From positions 6,805,001 to 6,869,000 of the forward strand of contig CP128386.1 in NCBI GenBank assembly GCA_030345135.1: a DNA stretch of 64,000 nucleotides, given 5' to 3'. A program made the translations under genes and the position numbers. The notes beneath the pieces were generated by a model that had not been told where the DNA came from, did not search any database, and worked only from the letters and a program-made list of their open reading frames with translations. The DNA comes from Chitinophagaceae bacterium DXS (lineage in GTDB: Bacteria > Bacteroidota > Bacteroidia > Chitinophagales > Chitinophagaceae). This document shows, piece after piece, positions 12,360 to 58,188 of the stretch (positions within the stretch are counted from its first letter, which is position 1; each line of letters begins with the position of its first letter).

Positions 12360-12989
12360 AAATCCTGTTTTTTGTATATGGCAAACATAGGAGGCACAGG
12401 GAAATTTTAGGTGCTTTTGTATTAGCTCTTTTTAATTTAAGATGCTGATCGCTATACAGTACGGACATGACAGTGTTCCTATGTTATTGCTTTGCATTTT
12501 TTTGCCAGTTAATCCATCTCCTCGTCATTCATTTTCAATTGTCCCCGCCTGAATGACTCTGGTCGGGCAGGAATTTTCAATTTTCACTAAACATACGCCT
12601 CCGTGTCCCTTTGTGTTCGCCGGGCCTCCGTGGTTCAACAAAAAAACAACCATTCGTTTATTACTTTCTTTCTTAACCATAATTTGATAAAAAAATCTAT
12701 TCACATATTATAAACATCATTATTTTTGCGTCTTAACAATTTTGGATAACAATTTCATTCTGAACTGAAGTTGAAAGAAAACACAACACATCACAACTTA
12801 TTCGCTTTCCATCCTTCATTGATGGGTGTTGTTTCTTTGGCTAATCTCCCTGTTTTCCGACCTATCCGACGACCTCGTATCTGAGACTAACTCAATGCAT
12901 TGCATCCATATCAATTCAATGCGTCAGGCAGCCTCAAATTCCAGGCTGCAAAGGATACTTCGATTAGCTTATTTATCAAAAAGACAAAA
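12360..12989. other. Spacer between the NRPS and the arginine cluster
   Basis: I see no convincing gene in this 630-bp stretch. It holds an array of ATTTTCAATT-like words around 12530-12595 interrupted by one copy of the CCTGCCCG/CAGGCGGG palindrome (12543-12571, inverted). An AT-rich region follows, with a match to the Bacteroidota -7 element (TATTTTTG, 12721-12728) that could drive the arginine cluster; no well-spaced -33 TTG was found. An ATG at 12900 is in frame with the downstream acetyltransferase but would add 30 residues unlike the family N-terminus. Confidence 0.6.
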
Positions 12990-13763: not shown

Positions 13764-13786
13764 CCTGCCCGACTGGTCAGGCGGGG
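13764..13786 (+). repeat. Oriented palindrome CCTGCCCG/CAGGCGGG, copy in the GNAT-argG spacer
   Basis: This 23-bp imperfect palindrome sits inside an array of TTTTGACTTTT words (13740-13810). It is identical in sequence to the copy at 22481-22503. The two arms are not exact complements: one is CCTGCCCG and the other CAGGCGGG, which gives the element an orientation. Confidence 0.8.
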
Positions 13787-22480: not shown

Positions 22481-22503
22481 CCTGCCCGACTGGTCAGGCG
22501 GGG
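22481..22503 (+). repeat. Oriented palindrome CCTGCCCG/CAGGCGGG before argH
   Basis: The sequence is identical to the copy at 13764-13786 and it too is embedded in TTTTGACTTTT words (22462-22512). It lies 38 bp upstream of the argH start. Confidence 0.8.
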
Positions 22504-36878: not shown

Positions 36879-37642
36879 CAATTGACAATTGAAAATTGAA
36901 AATGGACCATGCGAATGTGCGGCGATTTGAAAATGGACAATTGAAAAATCATCGTTGTCAGAATAAAGATTGAAAAAATTGAGATCTAAAACCCTGTCAG
37001 ACGATAGTTGTAAAATGAATTTAAGCCGGGTCTAGGAAGAGAAGTATTTGATGTTTCATACTCCTTAGAATGAAAGGAAAAGAACCAGAGCCATGCGCGC
37101 TCGTACGATCAGGTAAGGTGATAACAACGATATAATGAAATAGGTTAGCGCAGATCGACTCAATCCCGAAGGGATGAAATTATTATAGAAATGCGTAAAA
37201 TCTTTATTCAAACCCTGAAAGGGTGGCATTATATAATGTCAACCCCTGCCCGTTCGGTCAGGCGGGCTTCGGGTTTTAAATACAGGCGTGTATATCCTTC
37301 TATAATAATTTCATCCCTTCGGGATTGCACGAATTGAGCTTGACGTTTTTAATAAAATTAGACTGGGTTAACGTGGCCGTTGTTCATTAAAGAAGTATTT
37401 CACACCTTTAGTGGGGCAATAATAGTTGAAAATGAACGGTGTGAACGTGAAGCCGGGCAAGATAATTAATAACGAGTGATTCAAACAATGAATAGCATCG
37501 ATCCTATCTTATTCACCCGGCTGCGGATGGTTTTCATTTGCACATTCGCATATTTGCTCATCTGCACATTGTCCCATTTGCACATTAAATAAAAGATGTT
37601 TTTGTCCTTTATTGCATTATCTTTGCCATAAAATCGAGCAAA
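36879..37642. repeat. 764-bp repeat-rich spacer upstream of the Rrf2 gene
   Basis: Contents in order: CAATTGAAAATTG words (36876-36950) with an AATGGACCATGCGAATGTGC block; a 29-bp perfect inverted repeat at 37162-37190 and 37298-37326 (CCCGAAGGGATGAAATTAT core) enclosing ACCCTGAAAGGGT and a CCTGCCCG/CAGGCGGG palindrome (37245-37266); and ATTTGCACATT words (37538-37588). The Rrf2 operator and promoter lie at the right end. No gene is seen. Confidence 0.8.
37592..37625 (+). promoter_or_regulatory. Operator-like dyad and -7 element of the Rrf2 gene
   Basis: AAAGATGTTTTTGTCCTTT (37592-37610) is an imperfect dyad that recurs, in perfected form, before the scdA-like gene. It is followed by TATCTTTG (37618-37625), an exact match to the Bacteroidota -7 consensus TAnnTTTG, 17 bp before the start codon. 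A repressor bound to the dyad would sit in the -7/-33 spacer, consistent with autoregulation. Confidence 0.6.
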
Positions 37643-39123: not shown

Positions 39124-39450
39124 GATAGTAAGACGTGTAAGACGTGTAAGACGTGTAAGACGTGTAAGATGTGTAAGACGTGTAAGACGTGTAAGACGTG
39201 TAAGACGTGTAAGACGTGTAAGACGTGTAAGACCAAAAAAAGACATGTAAGATAGTAAGAAAGTAAGATGGTAAGAGTTTGTGAACCTGCTGCACCCGCA
39301 ACAGCAATCTTACGATCTTACTGTCTTACGTGTCTTACGGTCTTCCTGCAACAGCAATCTTACGATCTTACTGTCTTACGTGTCTTACGGTCTTCCTGCA
39401 ACGGCTCTTCTTACGATCTTACTGTCTTACGTGTCTTACGGTCTTTATTT
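39124..39450. repeat. Convergent-gene spacer: 9-bp tandem array and an opposing 50-bp array
   Basis: Eleven tandem units of GTAAGACGT span 39128-39226; unit 5 (39164-39172) is GTAAGATGT. At 39301-39445 three copies of a 50-51 bp unit rich in CTTAC words (TACGATCTTACTGTCTTACG) run in the opposite sense. The two blocks are partly reverse complementary and could fold into a long hairpin between convergent genes. Open frames through the array (Thr-Ser-Tyr and Leu-Thr-Arg repeats) are artefacts of the 9-bp period. Confidence 0.9.
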
Positions 39451-45240: not shown

Positions 45241-46773
45241 ATGAACATGTCAACACAGAATAACAATAACACCCGTCCGCCGGCCACCTTGTTGTTTATT
45301 TTTGGGGGAAGCGGCGATTTGAATCAAAGAAAATTATCTCCTGCGCTATATAACCTTTTTTTGGATGGCTGGATGCCTGAAAAGTTTGCGATTGTAGGCT
45401 TGGGAAGAACAGCTTACTCTGATGAAAAATTCCGCAAGCATTTGTATGATGGCATCCAGGAATTCAGCAGAAGAAAAGGCGAGCAGAACGGACATTGGAA
45501 AGAATTCTCCCAACACGTGGGCTATTTGCAGATGGATGGTGAAGACGAAGCGGCTTACAGCAAAATAGCAGACAAGGTTAAGGAAGTTGAAGAACAGTTT
45601 GGCGAACATCCTAATGTTATTTTTTACCTGGCGGTTGCTCCGCAACTGGTTCCGGATATTGCTGTGAAACTGGGTAAGCTGAATCTTTGTAAAGACACGA
45701 TCTACACGCGCATAGTAGTTGAAAAACCATTCGGGCATGATTTGAAAAGTGCGCACGAACTGAATGCTTTGCTTACTTCCATGTTTGCTGAGGATCAGAT
45801 CTATAGAATTGACCACTATCTTGGTAAAGAAACCGTTCAGAACATTCTTGCATTGCGTTTTGCAAATGCATTGTTTGAGCCGATCTGGAACCGCAACTAT
45901 ATCGACCACATTCAGATCACTAACGCTGAAACAGTTGGTGTGGAAGGTCGTGGTGGCTACTATGAGCAAAGCGGTGCATTGCGTGACATGGTGCAGAACC
46001 ATATCCTGCAACTGATCTGCATGATAGCGATGGACGCTCCTGTGAACTTTGAAGCTAACGAGATCCGTAATAAGAAAGTGGATGTGTTGAATGCGTTGAG
46101 AAAGATTACCCGCGATGAAGTACATGCTTATGCAGTTCGCGGTCAATACAGTGAAGGCTGGATGAAAGGTGATAAGGTAAAAGGTTACAGGCAGGAAGAG
46201 AAAGTAGCTCCACAATCACCAACCGAAACTTTTGCGGCTATCAAATTCTATATTGATAACTGGCGCTGGCAGGATGTTCCTATCTACGTGCGCACTGGTA
46301 AACACCTGCACGATAAAACAACCATCATTACCGTTCAATTTAAGCAGGCTCCGCATTACGCCTTCCCACCGGAAGCTGCCGAAACATGGAGACCAAACCG
46401 TTTAACGATCAGCATTCAGCCTAAGACGGATATCCGTTTAAGGTTCCAGGCTAAACGTCCGGGTCAGACAATGACGTTGAGTCCTGTGGATATGATCTTT
46501 AACTATGAAGATGCTTACGACGGTCATGAGCCTGAAGCATACGAAACATTGTTGCTCGATGTAATGGAAGGCAACCCGACACAATTCATGCGCGCCGACC
46601 AGGTAGAATCTGCATGGAAAGTAGTAATGCCAATCATCGAAGCATGGGAACAAAGACCACCGGTTGATTTCCCTAACTATTCACCCGGAAGCTGGGGCCC
46701 TGAAGATGCAGAAGCATTGATAGCAAGGGATGGAAGAAATTGGGTGACGTTGCCTGCACCGCATAAGGAGTAA
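45241..46773 (+). CDS. zwf: Glucose-6-phosphate 1-dehydrogenase
   Basis: A 510-residue enzyme oxidising glucose-6-phosphate to the lactone with NADP. GGSGDLNQRKLSPALY is the coenzyme motif and RIDHYLGKETVQN the active-site signature. An ATG at 45241 is followed by another at 45247; either may be used. Pair with gnd upstream. The stop codon is followed at once by GTAAGACGTACGG-like words. Confidence 0.97.
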   Translation: MNMSTQNNNNTRPPATLLFIFGGSGDLNQRKLSPALYNLFLDGWMPEKFAIVGLGRTAYSDEKFRKHLYDGIQEFSRRKGEQNGHWKEFSQHVGYLQMDGEDEAAYSKIADKVKEVEEQFGEHPNVIFYLAVAPQLVPDIAVKLGKLNLCKDTIYTRIVVEKPFGHDLKSAHELNALLTSMFAEDQIYRIDHYLGKETVQNILALRFANALFEPIWNRNYIDHIQITNAETVGVEGRGGYYEQSGALRDMVQNHILQLICMIAMDAPVNFEANEIRNKKVDVLNALRKITRDEVHAYAVRGQYSEGWMKGDKVKGYRQEEKVAPQSPTETFAAIKFYIDNWRWQDVPIYVRTGKHLHDKTTIITVQFKQAPHYAFPPEAAETWRPNRLTISIQPKTDIRLRFQAKRPGQTMTLSPVDMIFNYEDAYDGHEPEAYETLLLDVMEGNPTQFMRADQVESAWKVVMPIIEAWEQRPPVDFPNYSPGSWGPEDAEALIARDGRNWVTLPAPHKE

Positions 46774-47382
46774 AGGGATGTAAGACGTACGGTTTTAGAT
46801 GTACGATGTGGGTAGTAAGTACGAGTTACGAAGTACGAAGTACTTAGGTGAAACAGGCCGATTGAATGTACGATGTCAGATGCCTGCCCGTACCGACGGC
46901 ACGTTCGGGCGGGTACGGTGTACGATGTGAAGGAATGTGAGATGTACGGTCTTAGATGTACGATGTGAGACAATGTACGATGTCTGATGTACGGTGTACG
47001 ATGTGGGGGCAAAATGGAACGTACTGTTAACGACAAGATTGTAATACAAAAGAAGGCACGCGGTTTTTAAACTGCGTGCCTTCTTTGTGCGAATGATTTT
47101 GAACCATGTAGGGCATATAAGGATATATAAGGTTTGCCCGTATTTGATAGAGACGCGACGCATCGCGTATCTACGGTAATTCGCGTGTTGACTGAGGCTG
47201 AAGGCCTCATATCACTAGCCCAGGGCAACGCCCTGGGAAAAATCGAAAATGCCGATCAAGCCCTGAAGGGGCGATAGCAAAAAATCAAATCAATGGCTCG
47301 TTCTACGGAGTGTAGGGCCTGCCGCAAATTGCATGTTGTAACGGAGCAAATGCATATTGTGGAGACGCGATGCATCGCGTCT
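46774..47382. repeat. 609-bp repeat mosaic between zwf and the GH2 gene
   Basis: Contents: GATGTACGATGTGAG words (46780-46812 and 46860-47005); a TACGAAG array (46817-46845); a CCTGCCCG/GGGCGGG palindrome (46883-46913); a terminator-like stem (47048-47086); two copies of a GAGACGCGATG palindrome (47149-47179, 47359-47391); and between these TGAGGC/GCCTCA and CCCAGGGC/GCCCTGGG stems. No gene is seen. Confidence 0.85.
47048..47086. terminator. Bidirectional terminator-like stem between zwf and GH2 genes
   Basis: Arms AAAGAAGGCACGC and GCGTGCCTTCTTT are exact complements, extended by GTTT/AAAC after one mismatch. It lies between two convergent genes with A and T runs on its flanks. Confidence 0.7.
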
Positions 47383-50166
47383 CTACGGTAACGGCACCTG
47401 TTGTTTTTCAATATTCCACCCGCTAACCTGCATCACAGAACCCTGCGTTATTTTATCACCCGCAACCGTCACAGACACATTCGCAGACTCTCCCGGTGCC
47501 AAGGAAATATAATTTGATGACCAAAAACATGGCGCCAGTTCATCAGCACCATTATTCAAAGACAAATTGATAAAGAATGCAACCTCTTTACCTGAATTCG
47601 TTAACTGGTAAGTAAATGTTTTTTCATTCTTCGAAGGAGCTATGCTTATCAACTTCACACCGACACTAGTCTTATCCATGTTCTGCATGGATTGATAATT
47701 GTTGCCCGGTGCAAGCCAATATGTATTGGACGAAACAATCTTCCCCTTAGAGTTTTTCAATCTTAATAAAACAAAACTCACACCGTTGGCGGAGGCCAAC
47801 GTCTTGTTTAATTCCACGGCTGATTTTACTTCCAATGCAGCGAGATTTATATTGCCAACACCTTTGTTGAAAATGGATTTACCACTCAAATCATACACAT
47901 TCACATCAGCTGTTAATCCGCTTTGCAAATTATGGGTGCGATTTACAACTGCAATAGTCGAATCATCATGATTAAACTGGATATGCAACGGCTCACAGGC
48001 GTTCTGCATAAAGTAATATCCGGCATTGGGTTGCAGGTACCAGTCATAGATCTGCCATGCAACACTCGGGAAAGCTGCGTTTAATTTCCATAACATTACG
48101 CCACCTGTTTCATTCAGTTTGTGATTGGCTGCTTCAAAAATTCCCTGGTAGCCTATTGCATTCAGCAATTGCATTTTTGTAGAAAAATCCTCCAGGCTGG
48201 TGGCCTTACCATAGCGCGTTTCCATTTCTTTGTAATACTTATCATAAAACATCGGGCTGGTACATGCATCATGATAACCCCATGTATGATTGAGCGGATA
48301 AGGCAATGATGTATCCCAGGTCAGGTTCGGAATTATCTTGTGCAAAGTAGAAATTGGCGGCTGGGAAGGCAGTCCGGTTTCATCTTTAAAAACCCAATCC
48401 TTACCATTGTTGACGAATTTGTAGTAATCCATCGGATCGCGCCAGGCGTAGGGTCCGCCACTGTAAACACCAGAGGCTTTATCATCCGGCCAGGAGTGTT
48501 TCATATCTGCCGGGAACTTTGCAAAGCCGGAAGAGTTGGGAATAAAAGGTCGAGTGCCATCTAACGTGGCAATACCATCACGCATGGCGTTGTAAATTTC
48601 TTTTCTTGCATGACCTTCATTACCGCCGGTCCATACCAATAAGCTGGCGTGGTTGCGAATGCGGTAAATGGTATTGATCATATTCCTGTTAAATACATCA
48701 CCCTGCAACGGCCAGTCAGGCGAGCCCTTGAACTCTCCTTGTGTATCACCAGTGATCCAGAAATCCGACCAGACCATCAATCCCAAACGATCAGCAATTT
48801 CAAAAAATACATCAGGTGGTGTAACACCTCCGCCCCAAATTCTCACGAGGTTTACATTGGCATTTTGACAAAGCCGCAGTTCATTATCCAATCGCAGGCT
48901 ATCGCGATTCAACATCATATCAGGAACCCACGCACCTCCCACCAAATGCACCTTCTTTCCATTCACATAAAAATCGCGACGCAGCCAACCGTTTACATCA
49001 GTTGTCTTACTATCCACCGTTCTTATGCCGAACACAAATGAGGTGTCGTCAGAAACTGTAGTGCCGTTGCTGTAGCTCAATTGAATTCTGTAGAGATCAG
49101 TCTTTCCATAATCATGCGGCCACCATAGATGCGGCTGCCTGATGATCATCTCTTTTACACTGTTATGATCGAGTGTTACATCAGAAGATGAACCGGCATT
49201 GACAGCAATATTTTTAGTGATGGTGATGGGTGTTCCTGCAAATGTTTCAGGTGTTATCTTAACCGTAAGTTTGCCATTATCGTTTGCTTTGCCGCTATTC
49301 TTTAATGATAAAGAAAGAGAAAGATTGGCGACGCTTGTATCAGGAAGATTGGGCAGATCAGTTTTGATCTGAACCGTATTGATCGTTGTATTGCCAGAAG
49401 TTTTTAAATATACCGGTTGCCAGATACCCATGTTTCTATCGCGCACTGGGGGAAGCCAATCCCAGCCAACGCTACAAAGCATGGTGACGTTCTTGCCAAT
49501 ATCTCCCGTAGGACCTCCATTCAAATAAAAGCTTTCCAGTGCTTTCAGCTGTTCTTTATCAGGCTCACCCGGAACATCCAGCGGATAAATTTTAACGGCG
49601 AGTGCGTTGTTTGCTCCGGCTTTTACAACAGAACTTACATCCAGGCTGTAGGTGGCAAACATGCCGACCATTTGCGATGAATCTGCAATTTGTTGTCCGT
49701 TCAGCCAAACATCCGCGCGGTAGTTAATTCCTTTAAACAGGAGTTGAAAGTGGCGGCCTTTGTCAGCCTCAGGGACTGTAAAGGTTGTTTTGTACCAATA
49801 CGGTTTTGCCCAGGGATTTTGCTGATTGGGCAGATGGCTGTATTGAAATAAATTATAACGATGATTGAAACTATCCGATGCATCGGGAATGAGCATGTTG
49901 TTCATGCCCTGGTATGGATCAGGATAGACATTGTTTCTGACTAACCCGGTGAGTACTGTTGATGGTACTTTCACCGGGAACCAATATTCTTTTGGTTGAA
50001 AGCCGGTAGTTGATAATTCTTTGCCAGATGCGGAGGTAACAGATGATGATTGTAACTGAAATGCTGTAAGCTTTACCTGCTTTACTTTGCCGCTTTGCGC
50101 AAAAAGAGAATGTAATGAGAGTAAAAAAAGAGTAGCTAAAATGGGGTATTGGAATGTCTTTCTCAT
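47383..50166 (-). CDS. Glycoside hydrolase family 2 (beta-mannosidase/exo-glucosaminidase-like)
   Basis: A 927-residue exported enzyme. The signal peptide (MRKTFQYPILATLFLLSLHSLFAQ) fixes the start at 50166, inside a longer ORF. The jelly-roll domain (WYKTTFTVPEADKGRHFQLLFKGINYRADVWLNG), the Ig-like domain and the TIM barrel follow in GH2 order. The acid/base Glu is in WTGGNEGHA and the nucleophile is probably in FKDETGLPS. Similarity of layout is greatest to mannosidase and exo-beta-glucosaminidase branches. The last codons and stop lie in a palindromic repeat (47359-47391). Confidence 0.92.
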   Translation of the reverse strand: MRKTFQYPILATLFLLSLHSLFAQSGKVKQVKLTAFQLQSSSVTSASGKELSTTGFQPKEYWFPVKVPSTVLTGLVRNNVYPDPYQGMNNMLIPDASDSFNHRYNLFQYSHLPNQQNPWAKPYWYKTTFTVPEADKGRHFQLLFKGINYRADVWLNGQQIADSSQMVGMFATYSLDVSSVVKAGANNALAVKIYPLDVPGEPDKEQLKALESFYLNGGPTGDIGKNVTMLCSVGWDWLPPVRDRNMGIWQPVYLKTSGNTTINTVQIKTDLPNLPDTSVANLSLSLSLKNSGKANDNGKLTVKITPETFAGTPITITKNIAVNAGSSSDVTLDHNSVKEMIIRQPHLWWPHDYGKTDLYRIQLSYSNGTTVSDDTSFVFGIRTVDSKTTDVNGWLRRDFYVNGKKVHLVGGAWVPDMMLNRDSLRLDNELRLCQNANVNLVRIWGGGVTPPDVFFEIADRLGLMVWSDFWITGDTQGEFKGSPDWPLQGDVFNRNMINTIYRIRNHASLLVWTGGNEGHARKEIYNAMRDGIATLDGTRPFIPNSSGFAKFPADMKHSWPDDKASGVYSGGPYAWRDPMDYYKFVNNGKDWVFKDETGLPSQPPISTLHKIIPNLTWDTSLPYPLNHTWGYHDACTSPMFYDKYYKEMETRYGKATSLEDFSTKMQLLNAIGYQGIFEAANHKLNETGGVMLWKLNAAFPSVAWQIYDWYLQPNAGYYFMQNACEPLHIQFNHDDSTIAVVNRTHNLQSGLTADVNVYDLSGKSIFNKGVGNINLAALEVKSAVELNKTLASANGVSFVLLRLKNSKGKIVSSNTYWLAPGNNYQSMQNMDKTSVGVKLISIAPSKNEKTFTYQLTNSGKEVAFFINLSLNNGADELAPCFWSSNYISLAPGESANVSVTVAGDKITQGSVMQVSGWNIEKQQVPLP

Positions 50167-53950: not shown

Positions 53951-54442
53951 AATAGGTTTTAAGTAAACAATTGCGATCTGCAACCATTGTCTTTTCCAGA
54001 GCTGATCAAGTACGAGCTACGAAGCCTGCCCGAACAGAAGCTCATTCAGGCGGGTACGAAGCCTGCCCGGACTGAGTCCATTCAGGCGGGTACGTTAACT
54101 CGAACACGCTTTATTTCTTCAGCATCCTGAAAAGAGTGGCAGATAAGATCGATAATAAGCAAGTCGATTTCTGGTAAGCCTGACCGAAGTACCGTACTTC
54201 GTACTTCGTATTTCGTACTTTGGCCAAGACAGCATTACCAAAGTATATCGACTCTCATTTAACACCTGGGGTATCTCAAAATTACCTTTTTCCTCCCGGA
54301 AAAGCCGCCCGATGCTCCTCTTGCCCCTTCAAAGCCCCAACACCGGCGTCTGTATCTACCATTATCAGGAGGATAACGGCGAATGTTAAAAAAATCTAAA
54401 CAAATAGGTTGTTAATGAAATTTTCAACTTTTTAGGAACTAA
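53951..54442. repeat. Spacer with TACGAAG arrays carrying two palindrome insertions
   Basis: The plus-strand array CAAGTACGAGCTACGAAG (54007-54024) is interrupted by a palindrome (54025-54054), then TACGAAG (54055-54061), a second palindrome (54062-54090), then TACG. A reverse-orientation array (GTACTTCGTACTTCG) lies at 54189-54221. No gene is seen. Confidence 0.85.
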
Positions 54443-57485: not shown

Positions 57486-58188
57486 ATTCAAATGATGGAT
57501 TGAGCGTATATGAGGGATTTAAAGATCAAAAATCAGGACTTCCATACTTTAATAATTGCCAATGACAGATTTGGGTGTGGTGATTTTTTTCATTGCCGTT
57601 CCGCCTGCCCGATCAGTTCAGGCGGGCTTTAGCGAACGGAACCATAAGGCAACATGAATATGGCTTTAGCCACATGTTATAATATTGGGCTAAAGCCATG
57701 TTTAAATTTAATCACTATCCGTCGGTTAAAACCGACGGCAATGAACCGCTTTAAACAAAACTTTACCTCCCAATAACTTACGCAAACGTTTGAAATGATC
57801 TCTTCATAAGCTTTTTACTAAATTTCCTCAACCGACTGACTTATGTAGTATTTAAAGACCTATTTGTAATGCATACCGGCGATCAACTGAAGATCAGGTT
57901 GAACGGTTGAGCGTTTGAGTAAGGAATAAAATTAACTGGCTTTACAGAACAGGGATGAGTATAAACGATTTTGCTTAGCTTGATTTAAAATACATTCATA
58001 AATCAATGTCGTTTCCTTAAGAGGACACGAAAAAAAAAGCAAGCCTAAAATTAGGTATTTCGTACCCGTCCGAATGCGCATTCGGCGCGGGCGGGCTTCG
58101 TAAATCGTACTTGATAAATGCCAATTATTCTTAAAGAAACGACATACATTCATAACTAACCGGCGCTTTCGTTAAATTTTTACGTTGT
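57486..58188. other. 703-bp spacer before the sigma factor gene
   Basis: It holds the second copy of the inverted-repeat element (57591-57743) and a TACGAAG array (58053-58113) interrupted by a palindrome (58065-58095). A 73-codon minus-strand ORF (57932-58153) runs through the latter and is not credible. No other gene is seen. Confidence 0.6.
57591..57743. repeat. Inverted-repeat element, copy 2, with a nested palindrome
   Basis: The ends CATTGCCG and CGGCAATG and the inner stems GGCTTTAGCC and GGGCTAAAGCC match copy 1 (43195-43326) read on the other strand. The left hairpin CCGTTCCG...CTTTAGCGAACGG is split by a CCTGCCCG/CAGGCGGG palindrome (57604-57626). The right hairpin is CCGTCGGTT/AACCGACGG. 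Confidence 0.8.

Follow-up and report, generated by a model that had tools for sequence, protein, structure and literature searches.

Results

The window, i.e., the entire 64,000-nucleotide stretch of DNA analysed here, covers positions 6805001–6869000 of a 7.29-Mb single-contig Chitinophagaceae genome; coordinates refer to the window unless given as genome positions. A 510-aa ORF on the plus strand (45241–46773), which from its protein sequence we take to be glucose-6-phosphate 1-dehydrogenase (zwf), is located directly upstream of a series of heptad arrays on the same strand; its best relatives in a contig search that does not necessarily include the closest records are Chitinophagaceae proteins of up to 83% identity. 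The first array (46781–46808) reads TAAGACG TACGGTT TTAGATG TACGATG and harbors an unoccupied TTAGATG/TACGATG joint, followed by an array of the TACGAAG class at 46817–46843 (Tandem Repeats Finder and sequence). In the next, occupied array, the left heptads AATG TACGATG TCAGATG (46865–46882) and the right heptads TACGGTG TACGATG, then TG (46914–46929), enclose a 31-bp REP-like imperfect hairpin on the plus strand (46883–46913), presumably an inserted unit, with 22 near-identical copies genome-wide. The array TGAGATG TACGGTC TTAGATG TACGATG (46938–46965) provides the second of two further unoccupied joints in this spacer, the stretch 46927–46967 being 88% identical to 46770–46810 over 41 nt. 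The last array (46969–47003) consists of GACAATG TACGATG TCTGATG TACGGTG TACGATG. Beyond the arrays of 46781–47003, a separate strong hairpin (47049–47086) is followed by a convergent 977-aa ORF. Two GAGACGCGATGCATCGCGTCTC-type palindromes at 47148–47174 and 47359–47385, 184 nt apart, are 89% complementary.

At the occupied joint, CGATGTCAGATG (46871–46882) is followed by the 31-mer CCTGCCCGTACCGACGGCACGTTCGGGCGGG (46883–46913) and by TACGGTGTACGATG (46914–46927), while in the neighboring copy CGATGTCTGATG (46978–46989) directly abuts TACGGTGTACGATG (46990–47003); the palindrome and the joined copy thus read letter by letter as the initial annotation had described them. The 31-mer separates AATGTACGATGTCAGATG and TACGGTGTACGATGTG, whose 34 bases run on without a break, apart from one change, in 46972–47005; the flanks 46865–46882 and 46914–46929, when joined without the hairpin, match 46972–47005 at 33 of 34 bases, with one difference. 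The hairpin is not a chance feature: the pattern CCTGCCCGN{5,25}CGGGCRGG has a single match in the window versus a mean of 0.00 in 100 shuffles. No direct repeat of 1–10 bases abutting the hairpin was found, and since the flanking heptads differ (TCAGATG on the left, TACGGTG on the right), no duplication is visible for this copy.

The stretch 46978–47005 had been proposed to be the empty site of the insertion. It does present a near-identical unoccupied joint, but one that lies in a neighboring paralogous array. With up to four mismatches, the joined flank has 15 matching places in a 1.664-Mb sample of the genome, the neighbor among them, and a distant place at genome position 2277563 matches as well as the neighboring array does. 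Because the region is a heptad array, similar joints are common: hairpin-free TNAGATG/TACGRTG joints number 154 genome-wide (some of them in tandem clusters), compared with 0 in the reversed control, and the neighbor's own TCTGATG variant falls outside the TNAGATG pattern counted here. Judged by its sequence, 46978–47005 is one unoccupied paralogue among many rather than an allele.

Array statistics were obtained for the 1.664-Mb sample, which includes the window. Runs of tandem similarity were most numerous at lag 7 (282 runs), with 125 runs at lag 14, 53 at lag 8, 5 at lag 9, 1 at lag 6 and 0–2 at the other lags from 3 to 15. By our own simple ORF caller, which served for placing arrays and hairpins relative to genes, 272 of the 282 lag-7 runs are intergenic within 15 bases, and with their 7-bp units they correspond to heptanucleotide tandem repeats. 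The words include TACGATG, TACGAAG, GAAAATT, GACTTTT, AGCTTTA, AGTGAAT, AGCTGAT and ACCTGAT, among others; on inspection by eye of the sample, many can be written as GAN or TAN plus a four-base core (AATT, TTTT, AGCT, ACCT, GATG or GAAG). The 53 lag-8 runs suggest that the heptads may be accompanied by 8-bp arrays in lower number, and several heptad arrays in the sample also appeared by eye as inverted pairs about 60–260 bp apart. A 32-bp palindrome at genome position 7090739–7090770 is surrounded by mirrored AATT-class heptads, the whole forming one long inverted repeat; this mirrored element was classed differently in the register test and in the gene-placement count described below. Unusually long arrays occur at 39128–39445, where 11.8 copies of the 9-bp unit GTAAGACGT at 97% are followed by 2.9 copies of a 50-bp unit. 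In relatives, 15 lag-7 runs, composed of other words, were found in 9 of 60 loci (711 kb), with 0–3 runs at lags 4–6 and 8–10.

Genome-wide, the 31-mer family comprises 22 copies in five sequence variants; array ends with hairpin-like words whose letters are changed or unmatched (genome positions 1446360, 4577807 and 4578011) were left out of this number. The right flank is TACG in 22/22 copies and the left flank GATG in 20/22 (GATA and GGTG once each), and the orientation relative to the heptad strand is identical in all of them. The left heptad is exactly TNAGATG in 19/22 copies, and 14/22 sit in the TNAGATG/TACGRTG pattern. The 31-mer itself hardly varies, in contrast to the flanking heptads (19 distinct 14|14 contexts). 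Twenty of the 22 copies lack an abutting direct repeat of 2–14 bases, one has a repeat of 7 and one of 2. Ten copies belong to two local tandem clusters (genome positions 1572841–1573522 and 5829054–5829757), such that about 14 separate places remain. At distances of more than 30 bases, shared stretches persist in many of the 22 copies; they are long within the two clusters and elsewhere mostly about 20–120 bases, largely TACGAAG-class heptads by eye, and given these shared outer flanks the copies may not all be independent events. All 17 copies in the sample lie in intergenic stretches according to the simple gene caller, and as a multicopy extragenic palindrome within the 20–50 nt range the 31-mer conforms to the general description of a REP. 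As single-stranded DNA it is not unusually stable (z −1.0 and −0.9 for the two strands).

Hairpins of the CCTGCC type number 43 in the sample: 17 in arrays of the ATG class, 10 in the AATT, 6 in the TTTT and 4 in the AAG class, plus 6 others. The 31-mer is confined to ATG-class arrays (22/22) and the ACTGGT-type 21–22-mers of the sample to TTTT arrays. The four AAG-class hairpins all differ, with ends resembling the AATT type, and a motif-free scan revealed a further hairpin type in AAG arrays with 5 copies; a hairpin bound to its array class is therefore evident in the case of the 31-mer, while the AAG class gives no such clear picture. One of these 5 copies is a 31-bp hairpin on the minus strand of the window (58065–58095; CCCGCCCGCGCC... 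on the heptad strand) between TACGAAG-class heptads. Within a plus-strand TACGAAG array, two hairpins of 30 and 29 bp are separated by a single TACGAAG heptad (54025–54090); inspection of 54018–54094 showed that the two differ in sequence and both have TACG directly after them. The window further contains a 28-bp hairpin between AATT-class heptads (12544–12571, minus strand) and two 22-bp hairpins between TTTT-class heptads (13764–13785 and 22481–22502, both plus strand). A different 22-bp type, CCTGCCCG, is found at 37245–37266 and at genome positions 1430254, 4337562 and 4666078, with CTT(C/T)GGG after it and outside heptads.

Once the hairpins are excised, arrays of four classes return to a 7-bp register. 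In this register test, matches at lags 7 and 14 were counted across the joint left by excision, using distinct 14|14 flanks without N (14 of 17 for the ATG class). At offset 0, matches amounted to 209/294 (0.71) for the ATG class (14 flanks), 50/84 (0.60) for AAG (4), 157/210 (0.75) for AATT (10) and 90/126 (0.71) for TTTT (6), versus 0.37, 0.32, 0.45 and 0.48, respectively, for the best other offset between −6 and 6. The 6 hairpins classed as other, which were set apart, gave 26/126 (0.21) at offset 0 and no peak. A shift by a whole heptad (offset 7) scored 0.68 (ATG), 0.52 (AAG), 0.67 (AATT) and 0.56 (TTTT) and is inseparable from offset 0. Thus, the clean insertion without target duplication inferred in the initial annotation is supported, as a gain in exact register, by the 22 copies as well as by hairpins in three further array classes, but register alone does not distinguish a 7-bp duplication, i.e., of one heptad. 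A de novo scan for GC-rich hairpins whose removal restores the register yielded 25 places in 1.664 Mb, used here as a list only, as its offset control was not clean (3, 59, 2, 32, 27, 17 and 26 placements at offsets −3, −2, −1, 0, 1, 2 and 3, respectively).

A preference for the joint was evident in the ATG-class chains of the sample, where TNAGATG precedes 13/14 occupied versus 63/297 unoccupied joints (Fisher p = 5.4e-8); this count caught 14 of the 17 copies, the 3 missed ones probably having no exact TACGATG unit in their chain. When four entries of one tandem cluster were removed, 10/10 occupied joints remained with TNAGATG (p = 3.5e-7).

The exact composite GATG-hairpin-TACG occurs 20 times in this genome and 0 times among the remaining 293 genomes sampled from the family; looser CCTGCCYG...CRGGCRGG hairpins are present in 191/294 genomes, this one included. 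There were no matches to the 31-mer family in viral contigs, and no CCTGCC-pattern hairpin in 60 loci around the zwf genes of relatives, whose spacers we regarded as too distant to serve as alleles. A scan of relatives' loci (these 60 and L188–L227) for GC-rich hairpins in heptads returned 5 entries, none of them convincing. Related hairpins of the CCTGCCCGACTNNGTCATTCAGGCGGG type were seen by eye outside heptad arrays at four loci of other genera, which argues for the hairpin being a separable unit. In a different genus rich in similar hairpins (12 genomes), one locus (L191) had no near-identical ortholog and so gave no occupied/empty pair, the best match outside its repeat being about 70% (69% in one genome, 72% over a short stretch of a second). 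At a locus outside this genus's own genome set or within it, namely L205 (position 1501), which likewise belongs to a genus other than that of the window, a CCTGCCCGACTAAGTCGTTCAGGCGGG hairpin is positioned between the heptad-like words GGTTACC and GGTTACT; this case was noticed by eye and is absent from the list of the relatives' scan.

Discussion

The best reading of the locus downstream of zwf is a register-exact gain of the REP-like hairpin 46883–46913 at a heptad boundary, in fixed orientation and with no target bases duplicated. That the hairpin was gained, and not lost from its neighbor, is inferred from the sequence of the two arrays: as in the occupied array, none of the four heptads (TACGATG TCTGATG TACGGTG TACGATG) is missing from the neighboring one, which would favor gain over slippage loss. 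Near-identical hairpins at the same kind of joint elsewhere in the genome point to a small spreading element able to enter repeat arrays with no trace of the usual scar. As the source of the copies we consider a founding insertion followed mostly by copying from array to array, to which we assign a probability of roughly one half. According to this model, a hairpin would enter one array class, and most of its later spread would be due to copying from one array of this class to another, through template switching or conversion via the shared heptads; local tandem duplication may add further copies, and the arrays themselves would lengthen or shorten seven bases at a time through slippage. The class-bound 31-mer, its fixed orientation, the preserved register and the varied outer heptads fit array copying after a founding insertion, and they also fit single-strand transposition; the mode of spread, by array-to-array copying or by transposition in trans, is a matter of deduction. 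The outer flanks shared by many copies, which a copying of larger units could produce, lean toward array copying. Against array copying, only about 18 bases of shared heptads would be usable in most copies.

It is possible, if doubtful, that each occupied joint instead represents a separate transposition of a non-autonomous single-strand element, for which a Y1 HUH transposase (RAYT or IS200 type) encoded elsewhere would do the cutting and joining, guided by the sequence on the left side of the joint. Single-strand HUH transposition gives fixed orientation and no target duplication, in agreement with what is seen for the 31-mer, and the preference for TNAGATG as well as a nearly uniform hairpin amid varied heptads also speak for it. 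Candidate enzymes are encoded in the genome, which has seven PF01797 matches; among four of these proteins scanned, L033 and L034 exceed the cut-off of the REP-associated tyrosine transposase model NF047646 and L028 that of the IS200 model NF033573, and L032 matches the RAYT model below the cut-off. Yet no CCTGCC-pattern hairpin lies within 1.5 kb of any of these seven loci, and the flanks of the RAYT genes, as far as can be judged by eye, carry other palindromes. (L033 and L032 appear to be similar RAYT genes, one apparently truncated, with repeated CGCCGATACAATCGGC and CGAGTG...CACTCG palindromes around them.) Moreover, the four left cores GATG, GAAG, AATT and TTTT do not fit one guide, and the 31-mer is found at GAAG/TACG joints in 0/22 cases, although TACGAAG/TACGAAG joints are common (36 unoccupied ones in the sample). 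Insertions of the IS200/IS605 type are characterized by a fixed orientation 3' of a short target and by the lack of target duplication; here, the orientation is fixed and 20/22 copies have no duplication, but four left cores occur across the classes, and array copying would produce the same pattern.

Alternatively, the arrays may originally have borne the hairpin, the empty ones having arisen by its deletion through slippage between the flanking heptads. Deletion readily affects hairpins that lie between direct repeats, and such slippage would keep the register. It should, however, also remove whole heptads, while the empty array at 46969–47003 retains every heptad of the occupied one, and the 154 unoccupied joints versus 14/22 hairpin copies in the same pattern would call for many such events, making this route quite unlikely. 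Very improbable is a fixed RNA or DNA module, i.e., a terminator or 3' stabilizer under selection and without mobility: its location 3' of zwf, the folding of RNA 46865–47093 (better than shuffles, z −3.94) and the somewhat lower frequency of arrays between divergent genes (39 versus 59 expected by bases) would be in line with such a role, but the folded stretch includes the separate strong hairpin 47049–47086, the excess of arrays is slight in both convergent (67 versus 57) and tandem (166 versus 156) spacers, and ATG-class hairpins in tandem spacers point along the genes in 2 and against them in 10 cases, a count that includes a tandem cluster. The spacer bias of the arrays is mild at most. 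No Rfam match reached the gathering score in 46500–47400, and neither spacer bias, RNA folding nor the Rfam scan provided evidence of a regulatory role of the arrays or the hairpin. The latter is probably a selfish or neutral repeat and not a regulatory switch of zwf.

One may go a step further and regard arrays and hairpins as one mobile system, in which words of 3 + 4 bases would offer their core (GATG, GAAG, AATT or TTTT) as a landing site for the matching hairpin by base-guided single-strand joining. We think this unlikely; if true, the arrays would be a renewable landing pad for REP-like elements.

For comparison with known systems, we draw on Di Nocera et al. 2013, where REPs of the GTAG and CGTC superfamilies are described as high-copy palindromes of 20–40 bp. 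Some of these families have other repeats as their insertion targets, of which a single genome may contain hundreds, and the CGTC families seem to be without a dedicated transposase (PMC3733652). The 31-mer resembles these REPs, as far as they are described there, in being a short high-copy palindrome inside another repeat. It differs in having neither GTAG nor CGTC at either end, its flanks being GATG, GATA or GGTG and TACG, and its targets are 7-bp direct arrays. In the TnpAREP/REP system (REPtron) and in REPINs, small hairpins are possibly moved in single-stranded form by a Y1 transposase in trans, according to the parts of the literature cited (PMC8266576; PMC3116915); the 31-mer lacks the GTAG tetranucleotide, and no hairpin of its pattern lies within 1.5 kb of the PF01797 loci of this genome. 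How REP families that lack their own transposase spread is poorly understood.

Heptanucleotide arrays are likewise known, the passages considered here reporting TAACTGA repeats in Beggiatoaceae, cyanobacteria and five Bacteroidetes (PMC4679880) and GGGAATC and GGGGAYT arrays in Xanthomonas and Nostoc (PMC4692102). They are described there as dispersed and largely intergenic, with heptamer over-representation ascribed to polymerase slippage (PMC4679880; PMC4692102). The arrays of the present genome share the 7-bp unit and the dispersed, largely intergenic location with these descriptions, but many different words occur together in the same genome (282 runs at lag 7 in 1.664 Mb), and several classes bear in-phase hairpins, whereas the term 'palindrom' is absent from the main text of PMC4679880. 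REPs inside repeats, transposase-less REPs and heptad arrays, including those of some Bacteroidetes, are thus separately on record in the portions of the literature cited. Phased hairpins in heptad arrays of Bacteroidota were not found among the papers listed in the literature searched, most subscription journals being outside its reach. The many empty and occupied copies of one short joint, in several classes and within one genome, offer a clean comparison for the spread of such hairpins, and they connect heptanucleotide arrays with REP hairpins, repeat types that are mostly investigated separately.
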